Assembly: GCF_009789235.1 (NCBI RefSeq) | Contig: NZ_WSTB01000001.1 | Location: forward strand, 248,001 to 312,000 | Reading direction: 5' to 3' | Length of the DNA stretch: 64,000 nucleotides | Source: Flavobacterium hydrocarbonoxydans | GTDB taxonomy: Bacteria > Bacteroidota > Bacteroidia > Flavobacteriales > Flavobacteriaceae | Shown here: piece by piece, positions 2,357 to 20,873 of the stretch | How the letters are laid out: every line of letters begins with the position of its first letter | Numbering within the stretch: the first letter of the stretch is position 1 | Translations under genes and position numbers: made by a program | The notes under the pieces: model-generated | What the model saw: only the letters and a program-made list of their open reading frames with translations | What the model was told of the DNA's origin: nothing | Databases searched by the model: none

Positions 2357-2983
2357 ATGGCAAGAGGAATCACAACAAAAACACTCTTAAATAAAAAATT
2401 TAAAACATTCAAGTTTGACGGAATTTGGGAAAAAGTCTTAGGTGAGCAAGAGCGAAGTGGAATTTGGGTGATTTATGGAAATGAAAAAAACGGAAAAACA
2501 ACACTAGCTCTATTGCTTTCAGAATACCTCACCAAGTTTGAAAATTTGAATTACATATCTGCTGAGGAAGGAACCGGATTCTCTTTTCAGCAAGCAGTAA
2601 AAAGAGCTCACATCGATTTTAAGAGCTCAAAAATAAAGTGGCATGATTACCTAGAAATTGAGGACTTGTCAAATGTATTAGAGAAAAGGCAGTCGGCTAG
2701 AATAATGGTCATAGATAATGCCACTGCTTATGTAGATGATTTAAAAACTGCAGATTTAAGAAGAATAAAAAGGAAAAACCCTGACAAGCTCATCATTTTA
2801 ATGGCGCACATGGAAAAGAACGAACCTACAACAGCAGTTGCTAAACTAGCAAAAAAGCTATGTAATGTTTATTTCAGGGTTGAAGGTTTAACGGCGTTTG
2901 TCGGTGGCAGATGTCCGGGGGGTGTTTTAACAATTAACGAACAAACAGCAATGCTTTATCACGGAAGCGATATAAAAAAATAG
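2357..2983 (+). CDS. RecA-like P-loop ATPase of the phage early operon
   Basis: 208 residues with Walker A GNEKNGKTT near residue 42 and a hydrophobic Walker B strand ending MVIDNATAY near 120; a later IILMAHMEK strand fits a sensor. The layout resembles small RecA/RadA-type or AAA_24 phage ATPases that act in recombination or DNA remodelling. The start codon directly follows the stop of the MuB-like gene, so translation is probably coupled. It has no counterpart in phage Mu itself. The exact role cannot be read from sequence; a part in transposition or replication is inferred from the neighbours. Confidence 0.75.
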   Translation: MARGITTKTLLNKKFKTFKFDGIWEKVLGEQERSGIWVIYGNEKNGKTTLALLLSEYLTKFENLNYISAEEGTGFSFQQAVKRAHIDFKSSKIKWHDYLEIEDLSNVLEKRQSARIMVIDNATAYVDDLKTADLRRIKRKNPDKLIILMAHMEKNEPTTAVAKLAKKLCNVYFRVEGLTAFVGGRCPGGVLTINEQTAMLYHGSDIKK

Positions 2984-2987
2984 AGCA

Positions 2988-3347
2988 ATGAAATCAACAA
3001 TTCAAAAATTAGCAATTACTCCAGAAGAACACGAATCGTTAATCTGGAATATTTACCAAAACTGGTGTGAAAGTGCTAGTACAACAGTATTAGAGTATCA
3101 GCAAGTATTGGCAAACGCCTCAATTAACCGGTGGTTTATGCTAGAGCTTACGAAATGTGAAGCTGAATTTCACAAGCTTACAGACAGATATGAAAATACT
3201 AGTGTGACAGCAAAAGATATGGAAAAATGCTACAAAGAATGTGCAATAGGGTTATTTAATATTCGACCAATGGCTTTATTACATCAAATAGCAAAACCAA
3301 AAATAGATAAAGGAATCAGAGTTTTTAACGCCTTATATCCTAACTAA
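2988..3347 (+). CDS. Early phage protein of unknown function
   Basis: 119 residues, not recognised. It is predicted all-helical, Glu/Lys-rich, with several Trp and Cys residues (NWCESAS, KCEAEF, EKCYKECAIG) and no clear domain. It starts 4 bp after the ATPase gene and ends 3 bp before the next, within the dense early operon, which supports it being real. Soluble, with no signal or membrane segment. Confidence 0.65.
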   Translation: MKSTIQKLAITPEEHESLIWNIYQNWCESASTTVLEYQQVLANASINRWFMLELTKCEAEFHKLTDRYENTSVTAKDMEKCYKECAIGLFNIRPMALLHQIAKPKIDKGIRVFNALYPN

Positions 3348-4684: not shown

Positions 4685-5056
4685 ATGACAGCAACCAAAA
4701 AACCACAAATCTACAGCGGAACCGGTTCCGCTGTAGATAACTACAACAAACCAGAAAAGCAACTTAAAACCATTTTAGAAGGTGGTAGAAGTCATAGTAA
4801 AAGCAATTGGGGATTATTCGATAAAACCAATTCGCAACATAAATATGTGCTTTCTCTATTGAGACAAGCTCAATGGGTTGTACCAAATGAACGATATGGC
4901 GAAGTTCCTGACCTTGCTAGGTTAAGCGAATTTTTAAAGAGTGAAAAATCGCCAGTAAATAAGCCTTTAAAAAGTATGTTCCCTGAAGAGATTTCAAAAA
5001 TAATAATTGCCCTGGAAGGAATAGTAAAAACGGTTCATAGTTCTAAAAAAAGGTAG
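4685..5056 (+). CDS. Unknown phage protein, possibly GemA/gp16-like
   Basis: 123 residues, soluble, basic. After a disordered N-terminal ~35 residues, a helical part follows (HKYVLSLLRQAQW, then ARLSEFLKSEKSPVNKPLKSMFPEEISKIIIALEGIV). A short domain ending in 'L..M...E..KII.ALEGIV' is loosely like the C-terminal part of Mu gp16 (GemA), which lies in a similar place in the Mu early operon. The resemblance is weak and the name is only a hint. Confidence 0.5.
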   Translation: MTATKKPQIYSGTGSAVDNYNKPEKQLKTILEGGRSHSKSNWGLFDKTNSQHKYVLSLLRQAQWVVPNERYGEVPDLARLSEFLKSEKSPVNKPLKSMFPEEISKIIIALEGIVKTVHSSKKR

Positions 5057-11478: not shown

Positions 11479-11757
11479 ATGGAAACCATATTTGACTTTA
11501 AACCAACGCCTCAGGAACTGAACGACATTCGTTTTGATTCCTTTTCGTTGTGCCTAAAATTTGGTATAGAAACCGACAAAGAGCTCACACAAGAGATTTA
11601 TAAAGAACTTGTCTCGCAAGAAAACGCCTATTATGATTTAGCCGTTTTATTTGAATTTAGAGAAGACCAGGACAAAGCAAAAGAATATTGGAAAAAACTA
11701 CCAAAAGCACTTCAAACCGAAGGTTTGGGTTATGATTGTGCCAATATTGCTATTTAG
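11479..11757 (+). CDS. Acidic orphan protein inside the head operon, opposite strand
   Basis: 92 residues, acidic, helical (PTPQELNDIRFDSF, KELTQEIYKELVSQENAYYDLAVLFEF, KAKEYWKKLPK), perhaps one TPR-like helical pair. It has its own promoter and is convergent with the MuF gene, overlapping its 3' end by 8 bp. Expression separate from the structural operon suggests a lysogeny-stage or accessory (moron-like) role. One idea is an immunity partner for the peptidase-like tail of MuF, but this is speculation from position alone. Confidence 0.6.
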   Translation: METIFDFKPTPQELNDIRFDSFSLCLKFGIETDKELTQEIYKELVSQENAYYDLAVLFEFREDQDKAKEYWKKLPKALQTEGLGYDCANIAI

Positions 11758-13192
11758 TATTTTCGTTTAAATATTTCGTGACCTTACTACCAATCGTGCT
11801 GTAATCCTCCATTAAAAAAGGCATCAAATGCTTAGCTGCTTTCTTCTCATCAATTTTCCTGTTTTTTAGATTTGCTCTAAAGTCAGTTATCCAGCTTTTG
11901 TAACCGTAGCCATTTTCTAAAATTTCTTTTTGGTGAATTGCTTCGCCTCCTAATTTTTTTATAAAGTCCGGGTATGTATGTCTTGCAACAAATTGGTTGA
12001 CCGTTTCCATATTTTTAGTACCAATTGTACTCAATTTTTTTGGCGGTGTTTTAGTTTTAGCGTGTAATATTTCATGCCATAAACTTTCAAAAGAATATTC
12101 CTGGTTAAAGGTCATTTTCTTACCGCTTTTAATTGCAGCCAAACCACCTCTAAACTCTTCAAGCGGATTAAATTTAATACTTGAAAACTCGTGACTGCTT
12201 AATGTTATGATTGAACCACCAACCCATTCACCGGAATTTCTATTGTGATACATGGCGTGTTGCATCATATATGAAGTTGATTTTAAAAACTTCACATCGT
12301 CCAGGCCTCTTCTAAAATCTTCCGGTGAAATATCAGCGTACTTTAAAAGAATAGCTTTCATTTCGTTATTGGTCGGATCTTCGCCTTTAATAAAGTCAGC
12401 CAGATCAATAGTGTTTTCTTTTTTCAATTCTTTAACTACTGCTTTTGCTCCTTTAACTTTAGTGTATGGATGCTCAGGCGGGAAAATCTTTTTTGTTAGT
12501 CCAGGATTAAACCTGAATATTGCAAGTTTGTTTTTTCCATCCTTACCGATTTGGCTTGTGGCTTTTTCACCATTAGCAATAGATTTTTTGCTGTCACTAA
12601 CATCAAATTTTCCTTTTCTAACCATGATAGCCAAACAACGACAACGCCACCCGTTTGGCGGATAATAGTAAATCCAAAACACATCGTCAGCCGCAAGAGT
12701 TACATTGTGCAATATTGCGTGGCTATCTCTTACTTTGTCATCACTAGCTGTTCTATATTGCAAATCATAATCACTTGAAACATCCGCCCAATTCGCTGCT
12801 GACTGTGCTGATGATCCTGCAAATTGCCATTCTGCTTCTAAGTAATTCTGATTGTAGTTTTCTTTGATTTTTGAGACATCTTTAGAAAACTGACTAAATG
12901 ATTTTTTTTTGTTTTCATCAGTCAACAAAAGGCTTGAAGCTTCAAATAATTGCGCATGTGTTTTAAGCCCCGAAAATATAAATATATCTTCTTTCAGACT
13001 TTTGAGCATTGCTTCCGGGATGTCATTATCTAAAATAGCAGATTCAAAAACTGAACTCGTTTCTTTAATCAGATTTTTATATTCTTTGGTTTTTAGTAAA
13101 TCTTCCGGGGTATATTTTCCGTTCTGATGCAGTTTTTTAAATGCCTTTTCAACGGTTTTTAAAACGCCTTTAAATTTGTTTTCTATTGCCAA
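11750..13192 (-). CDS. MuF-like minor head protein with C-terminal zincin-like domain
   Basis: 480 codons from a TTG at 13192. Residues about 120-195 carry the Mu gpF signature: NWADVSSDYDLQYRTASDD, VRDSHAILHNVTL, and PPNGWRCRCLAIMV. This minor head protein is packed with or near the portal. Beyond about residue 260 lies an extra domain with HEILH at 373-377 and a Glu at 396, a plausible HExxH...E zinc peptidase site; MuF proteins of temperate phages are known to carry variable toxin-like C termini. There is no ATG near the 5' end. The frame is open back into the end of the portal gene, and a -1 frameshift there would add 38 residues and fuse it to the portal. Confidence 0.85.
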   Translation of the reverse strand: MAIENKFKGVLKTVEKAFKKLHQNGKYTPEDLLKTKEYKNLIKETSSVFESAILDNDIPEAMLKSLKEDIFIFSGLKTHAQLFEASSLLLTDENKKKSFSQFSKDVSKIKENYNQNYLEAEWQFAGSSAQSAANWADVSSDYDLQYRTASDDKVRDSHAILHNVTLAADDVFWIYYYPPNGWRCRCLAIMVRKGKFDVSDSKKSIANGEKATSQIGKDGKNKLAIFRFNPGLTKKIFPPEHPYTKVKGAKAVVKELKKENTIDLADFIKGEDPTNNEMKAILLKYADISPEDFRRGLDDVKFLKSTSYMMQHAMYHNRNSGEWVGGSIITLSSHEFSSIKFNPLEEFRGGLAAIKSGKKMTFNQEYSFESLWHEILHAKTKTPPKKLSTIGTKNMETVNQFVARHTYPDFIKKLGGEAIHQKEILENGYGYKSWITDFRANLKNRKIDEKKAAKHLMPFLMEDYSTIGSKVTKYLNENTK

Positions 13193-13268: not shown

Positions 13269-13312
13269 GCCCCAAAATACCCATCATAAGCTTTGGGGCC
13301 TAGACGAAAAAA
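13269..13312 (-). promoter_or_regulatory. Candidate -1 frameshift element joining portal to MuF
   Basis: Read on the minus strand, the last portal codons contain the heptamer T TTT TTC in the zero frame (13312-13306). Six bases follow, including the portal stop TAG, then a perfect 8-bp stem GCCCCAAA (13299-13292) / TTTGGGGC (13276-13269) with a 15-base loop. After a -1 slip the frame reads without a stop for 38 codons into the MuF frame at 13192. Slippery heptamer, spacer and stem have the layout of known programmed -1 sites. Confidence 0.75.
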
Positions 13313-14553
13313 CCCTCACCAAATGAAAGATTTGTTGCTGGAGCTGTTGCCGCTTGTAGAGGTCTTAATATTTTCAAACCAAAGGTCGAGTTCATCCATT
13401 CGATATCCATTTCATATTTTTGCATTGCTTCTTTAGTCATTGACCATAATTGCGCGATATCTTTAGTTTCAGGATATGAGAAAACACAATCGCCGGAAAT
13501 TATTCCAATATTTATCAATGCCGGAATTACAACTGCATTCCAATATTGCTCAATCAATGATAAATCACTATTAACTAAGGTTTGTAATGTTTCCTGCATT
13601 GATGCTTCTTTAGATCGGCTACCGTTTTTGGTGTCCTGACCCATTACAGCACCATTGAAAAGCATTGAAAGTTCGTTGTTACAAAATTTCATTAAACTTT
13701 CATAAACAACACCGTCCGCTTTTGTCGCTTCCGCAAATTCGAATGCTTCGTTTTCGTCAATAATAAACCAAGCCGCTGCGCCAAATTCTTTCATCATTCG
13801 CTCAGCTCTTCGAAGCATTGCAATATTTTGCGTATCGGTTTTCATAACACGTGGTGGAATGCCGGCAATCTCACAAAGTTCAGACCAACAGGATTGCGCA
13901 AAACGTTTAAACAACACGTGAGGTACAGCGCAATTCATCAGACCTAAATCTTCCGGGTCTCCAAACTCTAAAATCCATGTTCCGAATTCACGCATTTCAC
14001 GATATGCGAATCCTTTATCATCCCTGTAATCAGGATAAAATATGCCTTCTTTTGGATCAATGTTTTGTCTCTTTAAAAGCTTTGCGCCCAATTGCGGTTT
14101 CGTGGTCTCTACGTTGTTTAATTTTTTAATCCAATCTAACTCTACAACGGAATGACCATGCGTAACGGTGCCTAAAATTGCCTTATTGATTTCATTGACC
14201 CAAATTTTATCCTGCAAAAAGTTGGTAACCTCTTCGTTAAGTTTTCCGGCTTTATCTGTTATTTGAAAGTTACATGCTAATGACTTTAAAAAACGGTTGC
14301 CGACCTGAGAACGAAGTAAACCATCGATGTTAATTTCATCGTATAGGTTCATTAATAGAAAACGTTTTGGTTTTTCGGTTTTACCCGCCATTGTTAGTGC
14401 CGTTTTCCACGTTAACACGTCCTGACGCACACGCGACATTGCAACCGGAACAATTTGATTTACTAATCCGGGAGAGCCTCCCTTTGCGGTTGTTGTTTTT
14501 GATGCCAATTCTATTCTATTTCGGGCTAGTGATCTAACTTTTCTACTGCTCAT
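13300..14553 (-). CDS. Portal protein, DUF935 family (Mu gp29-like)
   Basis: 417 residues. The portal forms the dodecameric ring at the head vertex through which DNA is pumped. The match to DUF935 comes from its N-terminal part (RVRQDVLTWKTALTMA), the central block with FLQDKIWVNEINKAILGTVTHGHSVVELDW, CAVPHVLFKRFAQSCWSELCEIAG, and the ELSMLFNGAVMGQDT segment. Length fits the family, though many are nearer 500. It lies between the gp36-like gene (3 bp) and MuF. Its last codons carry a slippery sequence, so a minor fraction may be made as a ~934-residue portal-MuF fusion. Confidence 0.88.
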   Translation of the reverse strand: MSSRKVRSLARNRIELASKTTTAKGGSPGLVNQIVPVAMSRVRQDVLTWKTALTMAGKTEKPKRFLLMNLYDEINIDGLLRSQVGNRFLKSLACNFQITDKAGKLNEEVTNFLQDKIWVNEINKAILGTVTHGHSVVELDWIKKLNNVETTKPQLGAKLLKRQNIDPKEGIFYPDYRDDKGFAYREMREFGTWILEFGDPEDLGLMNCAVPHVLFKRFAQSCWSELCEIAGIPPRVMKTDTQNIAMLRRAERMMKEFGAAAWFIIDENEAFEFAEATKADGVVYESLMKFCNNELSMLFNGAVMGQDTKNGSRSKEASMQETLQTLVNSDLSLIEQYWNAVVIPALINIGIISGDCVFSYPETKDIAQLWSMTKEAMQKYEMDIEWMNSTFGLKILRPLQAATAPATNLSFGEGFFV

Positions 14554-20387: not shown

Positions 20388-20873
20388 ATGAAAATAGCAG
20401 AATTTTTTACAACCTCAGACGGGCAGGAATTTTACAAAGAAGATACAGCCCGCAATCATGCTAAAACTTTAGCAAATAAAAATGTAATTCTTCCTGGACA
20501 GGAAATTCATGAAGCTGTCGATGTAAACAACATTGAGGTTGATGCGGAAGAATTAGACGGAATTGATCATGTAACATTGAATGTTATCGCTCCTGCTTCC
20601 GATGCTCCTGCTTCTGATGCTCCTGCTTCCGATGCTCCTGCTTCTGATGCTCCTGCTTCTGATGCTCCTGCTTCCGACGCTCCTGCTTCTGATGCTCCTG
20701 CTTCTGATGCTTCTGCTTCTGATGCTCCTGCTTCCGACGCTCCTGCTTCTGATGCTTCTGATGCTCCTGCTTCTGATGCTCCTGCTTCCGGCGCTCCTGC
20801 TTCTGATGCTCCTGCTTCTGATTCTCCTGCTTCTGACGCAAAAAAAGATACTAAAACTAATACCAAAAAATAG
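20388..20873 (+). CDS. Phage protein with PASDA tandem repeats
   Basis: 161 residues. Residues 1-66 form a small domain (MKIAEFFTTSDGQEFYKEDTA, later EVDAEELDGIDHVTLNVI) of a kind seen in minor virion proteins before the sheath gene. Residues 67-148 are about 16 copies of the five-residue unit APASD, with a few variants (SASD, PASG, one shortened SD unit), followed by a Lys-rich tail. The repeat is probably a flexible, disordered linker. Two bp after the candidate spanin and directly before the sheath gene. Function unknown. Confidence 0.6.
   Translation: MKIAEFFTTSDGQEFYKEDTARNHAKTLANKNVILPGQEIHEAVDVNNIEVDAEELDGIDHVTLNVIAPASDAPASDAPASDAPASDAPASDAPASDAPASDAPASDASASDAPASDAPASDASDAPASDAPASGAPASDAPASDSPASDAKKDTKTNTKK
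20589..20840 (+). repeat. 15-bp coding tandem repeat (GCTCCTGCTTCYGAT)
   Basis: About 16 near-identical copies of a 15-bp unit in frame with the host gene, one shortened and several with silent or single-residue changes. Because the unit is a multiple of three, copy-number change would keep the frame. The same stretch is open in other frames on both strands, but those frames are by-products of the repeat. Confidence 0.95.

Follow-up and report, generated by a model that had tools for sequence, protein, structure and literature searches.

How is a protein made whose reading frame opens directly behind another gene and offers no early ATG? The question is raised by the junction between the genes for the portal protein and the MuF protein in a 64,000-nucleotide (nt) stretch of the Flavobacterium hydrocarbonoxydans genome (assembly GCF_009789235.1, contig NZ_WSTB01000001.1, positions 248,001 to 312,000), here called the window. 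The genome comprises 5.05 Mb in 41 contigs, with the window in contig 1, and a query with the portal sequence matches only itself there. Comparison of the junction, which lies on the minus strand at 13269–13312, with those of its relatives makes it highly probable that it is a −1 programmed ribosomal frameshift element of Bacteroidota Mu-like phages, and that this frameshift is genuine, conserved, and functional.

The portal gene (13300–14553, minus strand) encodes a zero-frame product of 417 amino acids ending in GEGFFV and matches Portal_Mu (DUF935, Pfam PF06074) with an E-value of 1.3e-64 and 219.1 bits, against a cut-off of 23.9. Its last codons read GGT TTT TTC GTC TAG on the minus strand. 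Six T (13312–13307) and the C at 13306 make up a slippery heptamer, T_TTT_TTC (13306–13312), which has the form X_XXY_YYZ in the portal frame, and the stop codon TAG (13300–13302) stands one codon past it. The bases GTCTAG (13305–13300) are followed by GCCCCAAA (13292–13299), the 5′ arm of a putative stimulatory stem that starts 6 nt past the heptamer and forms 8 perfect pairs with its 3′ arm, TTTGGGGC (13269–13276); in the −1 frame, the 3′ arm encodes part of a conserved FGALH motif. The −1 frame continues on the same strand from 13306 to 11750 (518 codons past the slip, with the stop at 11752–11750), directly after the portal gene, and matches Phage_Mu_F (Pfam PF04233; E-value 1.8e-11, 45.2 bits, cut-off 29.6), the domain itself lying at 12629–12898, which corresponds to residues 132–221 of the stretch starting at 13291. 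The first ATG of this frame is found 293 nt beyond the start of the portal stop. A TTG at 13190–13192, proposed as an alternative start, is codon 39 past the slip, and conserved MuF sequence already begins upstream of it. A preliminary description of this DNA had reported the heptamer, the six bases including the TAG, and the perfect 8-bp stem, all of which proved accurate to the base; the uninterrupted −1 frame, the lack of an early ATG, and the predicted fusion of 934 residues (416 + 518) were likewise found as described. A scan against Rfam returned no frameshift family and one chance-level match.

Relatives of the junction were collected in several scans. Six loci, including one with 100% identity, came from a first viral scan, and all six keep TTTTTTCGTYTAR and a stem. 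The same-genus scan covered 150 genomes, 11 of which had a MuF match (the window's own genome included). From a scan of genome contigs, 80 of 557 relatives were kept, nearly all titled Bacteroidota (two metagenome-assembled genomes, L044 and L081, are labelled Alphaproteobacteria), and a second viral scan contributed 80 of 588. Profile hidden Markov models found 182 MuF open reading frames (ORFs) in loci L001–L181, of which 10 had no portal gene in reach and 1 was fused to the portal in frame; the remaining 171 portal–MuF pairs (copies included, with 155 distinct junction sequences) were all in the −1 relation and none in +1. A search with Portal_Mu, which is unbiased with respect to MuF, was run on 395 genomes of the class, 395 of the phylum, 397 of the family, and 395 of the order, and gave matches in 20, 44, 9, and 16 genomes, respectively. 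In this wider set, 240 junctions had both portal and MuF (217 in −1, 10 in +1, 4 in the same frame, and 9 fused). Of these, 180 remained once the set was dereplicated at 85% portal identity, namely 157 in −1, 10 in +1, 4 in the same frame, and 9 fused.

A canonical heptamer is present in the overlap of 149 of the 157 dereplicated −1 loci, compared with 15.0 expected from the rate in portal bodies, and T6C or T7 (six T plus C, or seven T) is present in 122, compared with 0.27 expected. The background comes from zero-frame positions of the portal bodies, where canonical heptamers occur at 390 and T6C/T7 at 6 of 56,810 positions. Read off-frame, the same overlaps contain canonical heptamers in 43 and 25 loci. 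By type, the 149 loci divide into T6C (115), A6G (9), A7 (7), T7 (7), G3A3G (5), A3T4 (5), and C3T3C (1), and in 122 of them the portal stop lies 10 nt past the first base of the heptamer. Of the eight −1 loci that have no canonical heptamer, five (L206, L211, L214, L215, and L225) look like separate genes and three (L040, L120, and L146) have near-heptamers; L040 and L120 combine a −1 junction and hairpin-like sequence with CTTTTTC, on which P-site-only slippage would be possible.

The 50 nt that follow the heptamer fold with a mean free energy of −15.8 kcal/mol over the 149 loci, versus −8.0 for windows within MuF and −8.1 for windows within the portal gene. The same folds have a median z of −2.2, with 85 of the 149 below −2 and 41 better than all 100 of their own shuffles. 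A stem starting 4–9 nt past the heptamer was found in 134 of the 149 loci, versus 14–39 of 147–149 at eight control offsets. The stem goes with U-rich sites (T6C 114/115, T7 7/7, A3T4 5/5, and C3T3C 1/1), whereas A-rich sites are mostly without one (A6G 3/9, A7 2/7, and G3A3G 2/5).

Covariation was assessed in 20 equal-length junctions drawn from 69 loci preselected for a stem with a loop of at most 9 nt. Here, 98.8% of the cells are paired, a percentage that the selection biases toward the stem, and 17 cells are changed on both sides, compensatory changes being less affected by the selection; the covariation score was reached by none of 500 shuffles. Pair 19–29 occurs as AU (9), GC (6), and UA (5), and pair 20–28 as CG (14) and GC (5). 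When the partner is slid by one column, pairing falls from 98.8% to 44–56%. Codon choice shows a constraint on the RNA in addition to that on the protein. The Gly codon of the GLH/GAL/GAF motif is GGG in all 54 scored loci, compared with 202 of 1691 in MuF bodies, and the Pro codon is CCC in 57 of 77, compared with 306 of 1591 elsewhere. In some loci (L012, L026, and L143), unrelated sequence forms the stem. That of L012 (2889–2940, minus strand) is a long and perfect palindrome, GGGACAGGTCGCGACCTGTCCC, bearing no relation to the stems of its relatives; the idea that it is a dispersed repeat was dropped, since with up to 2 mismatches allowed its genome has no second copy (the one site matches itself on both strands). 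At the L025 junction (around 2950–3010), the stem past T6C contains CCCTTCGGGGGTTGGGGGG, which has 25 copies in its genome, G1576 (at up to 1 mismatch; control 0), and this frameshift stem may thus have been supplied by a dispersed repeat.

The relatives also include portal–MuF genes fused in frame. These were initially taken for plain fusions, a view that was dropped because their linkers retain slip sites. In the Porphyromonas gingivalis phages (L186 and L263–L266), L198, and L267, the linker has a zero-frame T_TTT_TTC with stems of the GCCCCG…CGGGGC type, and a −1 slip there would end the chain after 18–30 codons. Compared with the window, the polarity is thus swapped: the unshifted product would be portal–MuF, and slipping would yield the short portal. 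The nine fused ORFs of the wider set vary in this respect: the case is clear for L186 and L198 and weaker for L236 and L015, L204 combines A_AAT_TTT with a long stem, and no convincing element stands in the linkers of L194, L202, L203, and L247. Since canonical heptamers occur by chance at 29 of 6501 positions outside linkers, we regard the heptamers of L015 and L236 as unconvincing alone, and T6C with a stem as convincing. A larger set, assembled from a viral scan for the U type (80 kept of 127), a scan for the A-run type (13 loci), and L263–L267, contained 75 fused ORFs (near-copies included), of which 66 have T6C or T7, 7 have A7 or A6G, 1 is weak, and 1 has none; in six of the seven with A7 or A6G, the −1 frame stops after 1–4 codons. 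A stem is present in all 38 dereplicated U-type swapped loci, versus 4–14 of 38 at control offsets.

The −1 tails of these swapped loci differ from random sequence. All 50 distinct tails begin with [RF]..P, 24 have a motif like W.SPH, and all end within 6–30 codons, compared with 48% in the control. Between the heptamer and the −1 stop, substitutions at zero-frame positions 1, 2, and 3 number 18, 55, and 37, versus 55, 26, and 197 after the −1 stop (counts from 42 pairs among 29 sequences, which are not independent). Because zero-frame position 2 is the third position of the −1 frame, this peak indicates purifying selection on the −1 tail, and the −1 product of the swapped clade therefore also appears to be selected. 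Together with the slip sites retained in the fused ORFs, this suggests that the element is retained so that both products are made, whichever of them is the unshifted one.

To place the two polarities relative to each other, 337 junctions were dereplicated to 237, and a tree of 230 portals was computed with FastTree. The 237 comprise 136 normal U-rich, 26 normal A-rich, 38 swapped U-rich, 7 swapped A-rich, and 3 near-canonical loci, the others being counted as without an element (two of them, L246 and L259, unclear). Explaining the types on this tree takes 13 switches between normal and swapped polarity and 6 between U-rich and A-rich sites; the figure of 13 is rough, given purely local support values, some long branches, and deliberate sampling of the swapped type. 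The starred branches force at least nine changes for swapped U and at least four for swapped A, each relative to all other groups. In a portal tree, the branch to which the window's locus belongs (75 rows, support 100) has an element in each row (71 U-rich, 3 near-canonical, and 1 A-rich). ATG-started MuF genes without the element occur in lotta8-1, FPSV-S1, L201, L205, Mu, and D3112; as these have neither heptamer nor stem and belong to other branches, they do not contradict the frameshift proposed for the window's clade. The preliminary description had suggested an alignment of related junctions as a check, and across the relatives the heptamer, the stem, and the open −1 frame are indeed kept, with covariation and codon constraint at the RNA level.

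Within the window's class, a tally by eye of 48 loci (the window's own, L199, included) gave 42 with portal and MuF, 4 that showed no MuF, and 2 that were incomplete. Of the 42, 32 carry the element: 29 are −1 junctions whose overlap contains a heptamer, and 3 (L198, L204, and L236) are fused ORFs with a linker heptamer. L194, L201, L202, L203, L205, L206, L247, and L260 are without it, and L246 and L259 are unclear. L259 has T6C, with the MuF match behind a stop in the portal's own frame, and looks like a broken copy. Outside the class, most loci that were read have no MuF nearby or a MuF without heptamer, and in Mu and D3112 portal and MuF are separate, MuF being ATG-started. Two loci outside the class, L235 and L239, stand among separate-gene relatives and have a −1 junction with an A-run, for which an independent origin is possible.

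Several observations weigh against the proposed frameshift. The relatives share ancestry, so the counts given above lack independence, and among the 237 dereplicated junctions 20 separate genes (L246 and L259, unclear, among them) and 7 fused ORFs are counted as without any element; as mentioned above, 8 of the 157 −1 loci have no canonical heptamer. The stem of the window is not exceptional as a single sequence: its 73 nt fold with a z of −0.85, and 41 of 200 shuffles fold equally well, so that this stem convinces through comparison with its relatives. L177 has T6C, yet no stem by the criterion used, and only 7 of the 21 A-rich sites have a stem; at those sites, transcriptional slippage could serve. 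Two of the five covariation measures for the 20 junctions are not clearly above shuffles, namely the number of pairs changed on both sides (32 of 500 shuffles as high) and the number of further pair types (472 of 500). RNAalifold found zero pairs in a MAFFT alignment of a mixed set of 48 junctions, for which misaligned arms are probably responsible. Finally, a possible start codon of the MuF frame (ATG, GTG, or TTG) lies at most 30 nt from the portal stop in 35 of the 149 loci, and further upstream in 11.

These start codons, the in-frame TTG at 13192, and the ATG-started MuF of distant relatives would suit a separate MuF gene, translated by reinitiation at the TTG or at another non-ATG codon, with the −1 relation and the heptamer being incidental. 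We consider this highly improbable. ATG is scarce early in the MuF frame (31 of 5960 among the first 40 codons past the heptamer, versus 422 of 29,656 in the body); the first ATG follows the portal stop by more than 90 nt in 121 of the 149 loci, and homology to the MuF profile begins upstream of that ATG in 120. Moreover, the sequence upstream of TTG 13192 changes as coding sequence does. In codons 5–38 past the slip, the window's locus and five close relatives differ by 139 silent and 110 amino acid–changing codon differences, and between the slip and the TTG third-position changes number 207, versus 73 and 56 at the other two positions (634 versus 301 and 192 in the body). The −1 frame is thus conserved from the slip onward and has no start of its own. 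A separate gene would also leave unexplained the heptamer, the stem, and their upkeep in the fused ORFs. Two deposited MuF genes start 98 nt (L185, Peternella_1) and 275 nt (L188, TCUEAP3) past the portal stop, with homology beginning further upstream in both; these starts are probably an annotation effect of the frameshift, which would account for the truncated look of some MuF genes in databases. In L187 (hankyphage p00), T6C with a GC-rich hairpin lies 46 nt upstream of the portal stop, and an ATG of the MuF frame lies 4 nt before, or overlaps, that stop, so that both routes look possible there.

Fusion might instead arise by transcriptional slippage on the homopolymer rather than on the ribosome, which we hold to be slightly less probable still. 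Many A-type sites are long A runs, mostly without a stem, and in L246 the MuF frame follows an A11 run in +1, reachable by insertion or deletion of an A, while its A-run sister loci are in −1; this +1 frame could reflect either an assembly error or transcriptional slippage. For sites of the window's type, however, the T run is limited to six, the heptamer fits X_XXY_YYZ in frame, and a stem follows 4–9 nt downstream in 114 of 115 loci, and the sites A_AAT_TTT, C_CCT_TTC, and G_GGA_AAG (5, 1, and 5 loci) contain no long run at all. A false frame break, due to a sequencing error in an error-prone homopolymer of a 41-contig assembly or to decay of a prophage gene, has a negligible probability, since the −1 junction with heptamer recurs in 149 dereplicated loci, is carried by the deposited phage records Peternella_1 and TCUEAP3, and is accompanied by stems with compensatory changes.

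Programmed −1 frameshifting is thus the reading that we retain; the comparison shows that MuF stands in the −1 frame of the portal, that heptamer and stem are conserved, that the −1 frame is coding, and that the element is maintained in both polarities, and we infer that ribosomes actually slip, that the products arise in some ratio, and that both enter one portal ring. In the window, ribosomes would meet U_UUU_UUC with the stem ahead. Those that do not shift would translate a single further codon before terminating, giving the portal alone, while a fraction would slip back by one base and go on into MuF, giving a portal–MuF chain of 934 amino acids; both products would share one start. The portal is usually drawn as a ring of twelve identical subunits. 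With MuF attached at the C terminus of the portal, MuF and any terminal domain would be built into that ring, and a zero-frame portal with modest slipping would give a ring of twelve with a few fused subunits. The preliminary description had proposed both the portal–MuF frameshift, which is supported, and that the slip rate fixes the few MuF copies per head, which fits the swapped phages poorly. Because these fuse the two proteins without a slip, a low slip rate would give them many MuF copies, not few; at the same rate, most of their portal subunits would be fused, so that either these phages slip often or the number of copies is unimportant. A further reading, which we put forward tentatively and with rather less than even confidence, is that Bacteroidota Mu-like phages assemble each portal ring from two recoded forms, plain portal and portal–MuF, with selection keeping both forms and polarity free to flip. 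If so, slip efficiency in swapped phages would be high, near half.

The proposed mechanism is known; here it would act on an unexpected pair of genes, portal and MuF, and with a polarity that can be exchanged. In tail assembly chaperones of double-stranded DNA phages (lambda gpG/gpGT type), a slip site close to where the first frame ends gives a short product and a minor, C-terminally extended one. The junction described here resembles this system in belonging to a phage structural operon, in the position of the slip site, and in its two predicted products, but the genes differ and their polarity is exchangeable among relatives; by Pfam, the two frames are portal and MuF, and do not have the placement of a tail assembly chaperone between major tail protein and tape measure. 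In dnaX (tau/gamma) of Escherichia coli, the unshifted product is the long one and the −1 product ends soon after the slip. Sites of the A_AAA_AAG type occur here too, and the swapped phages share the long unshifted product and the early −1 end; unlike in dnaX, the proteins are portal and MuF, and their polarity has changed repeatedly on the tree.

The nearest precedent is gp4/gp5 of the Brevibacillus/Paenibacillus phage Emery, for which slippage was predicted by FrameD, with products of 58.9 and 82.5 kDa, unverified, and described as a head morphogenesis protein, not as portal–MuF (PMC4168068). The pair is deposited as a two-piece coding sequence. T_TTT_TTA (L362, 4718–4724) stands just before the stop of a portal-like gene, whose match to Portal_T4 is below the cut-off, and the −1 frame leads into an extension that was judged by eye to be MuF-like (site region 4718–4733). 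The site appears to be an independent instance of the same principle, in a single Firmicutes phage with another portal family, and was described without comparison across phages. SPP1 has the same protein pair, gp6 (portal) and gp7 (MuF), yet gp7 is separately started: in the available portion of the SPP1 account, gp7 is an AUG-started gene overlapping gene 6, and the two frameshifts that it names concern genes 17.1 and 17.5, not the portal (PMC6316719). As far as the accessible text goes, gp7-like proteins have been proposed as toxin carriers (PMC5576092, PMC6316719), and MuF polymorphic toxins, including Bxa of Bacteroides, are described as prophage proteins with an N-terminal MuF and variable C-terminal toxin domains (PMC5576092, PMC11699363); the word frameshift does not occur in the main text, as available, of PMC5576092 and PMC11699363. 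Compared with these descriptions, the MuF described here differs in that it seems to be produced as a portal extension. In the accessible parts of two further papers, MuF is named only with VIP2, as single fusion genes (the PRFect paper, PMC10885494), and frameshifts are mentioned once, for spanins (the P. gingivalis phage paper, PMC10367356). No prior report of a portal–MuF frameshift or polarity swap in Bacteroidota was found in the accessible text of the open-licence PMC literature, a scope that leaves bioRxiv outside.

A Pfam scan for possible payloads covered 40 MuF ORFs, the window's own and 39 from the 60 longest of 104 full-length ones, a choice that leans to long C termini. The Pfam families found, with one protein possibly counted twice, are Phage_Mu_F (40), Gln_amidase (10), ADPrib_exo_Tox (4), CdiA_C (4), ART (2), ATLF (1), and Peptidase_M90 (1), and thus include known toxin folds, which the frameshift would place at the C terminus of a chain linked to the portal. 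In the window's MuF, Pfam gives no toxin family in the C-terminal part, and the only motif is HEILH (HExxH; 12062–12076, minus strand), which has no Pfam family at that place and which we take as a possible metallopeptidase-like payload. An AlphaFold model of MuF from 5 sequences had a mean predicted local distance difference test score of 50.9, and a fold search against the PDB gave no match at an E-value of 0.001 or better. Elsewhere in the window (20388–20873, plus strand), an ORF with approximately 16 tandem A-S-D-A-P repeats lies directly upstream of a 410–amino acid ORF.

The prediction that follows is that a large group of phages makes two portal forms from one start, so that the portal ring could be mixed and MuF tethered to it. 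The occurrence of the same element with the frames exchanged provides a natural experiment on the purpose of a frameshift ratio. If rings are mixed, toxin-type domains borne by MuF would be anchored at the portal inside the head and be ready for exit with the DNA, which suggests a physical route by which such C-terminal domains may be loaded into phage heads.
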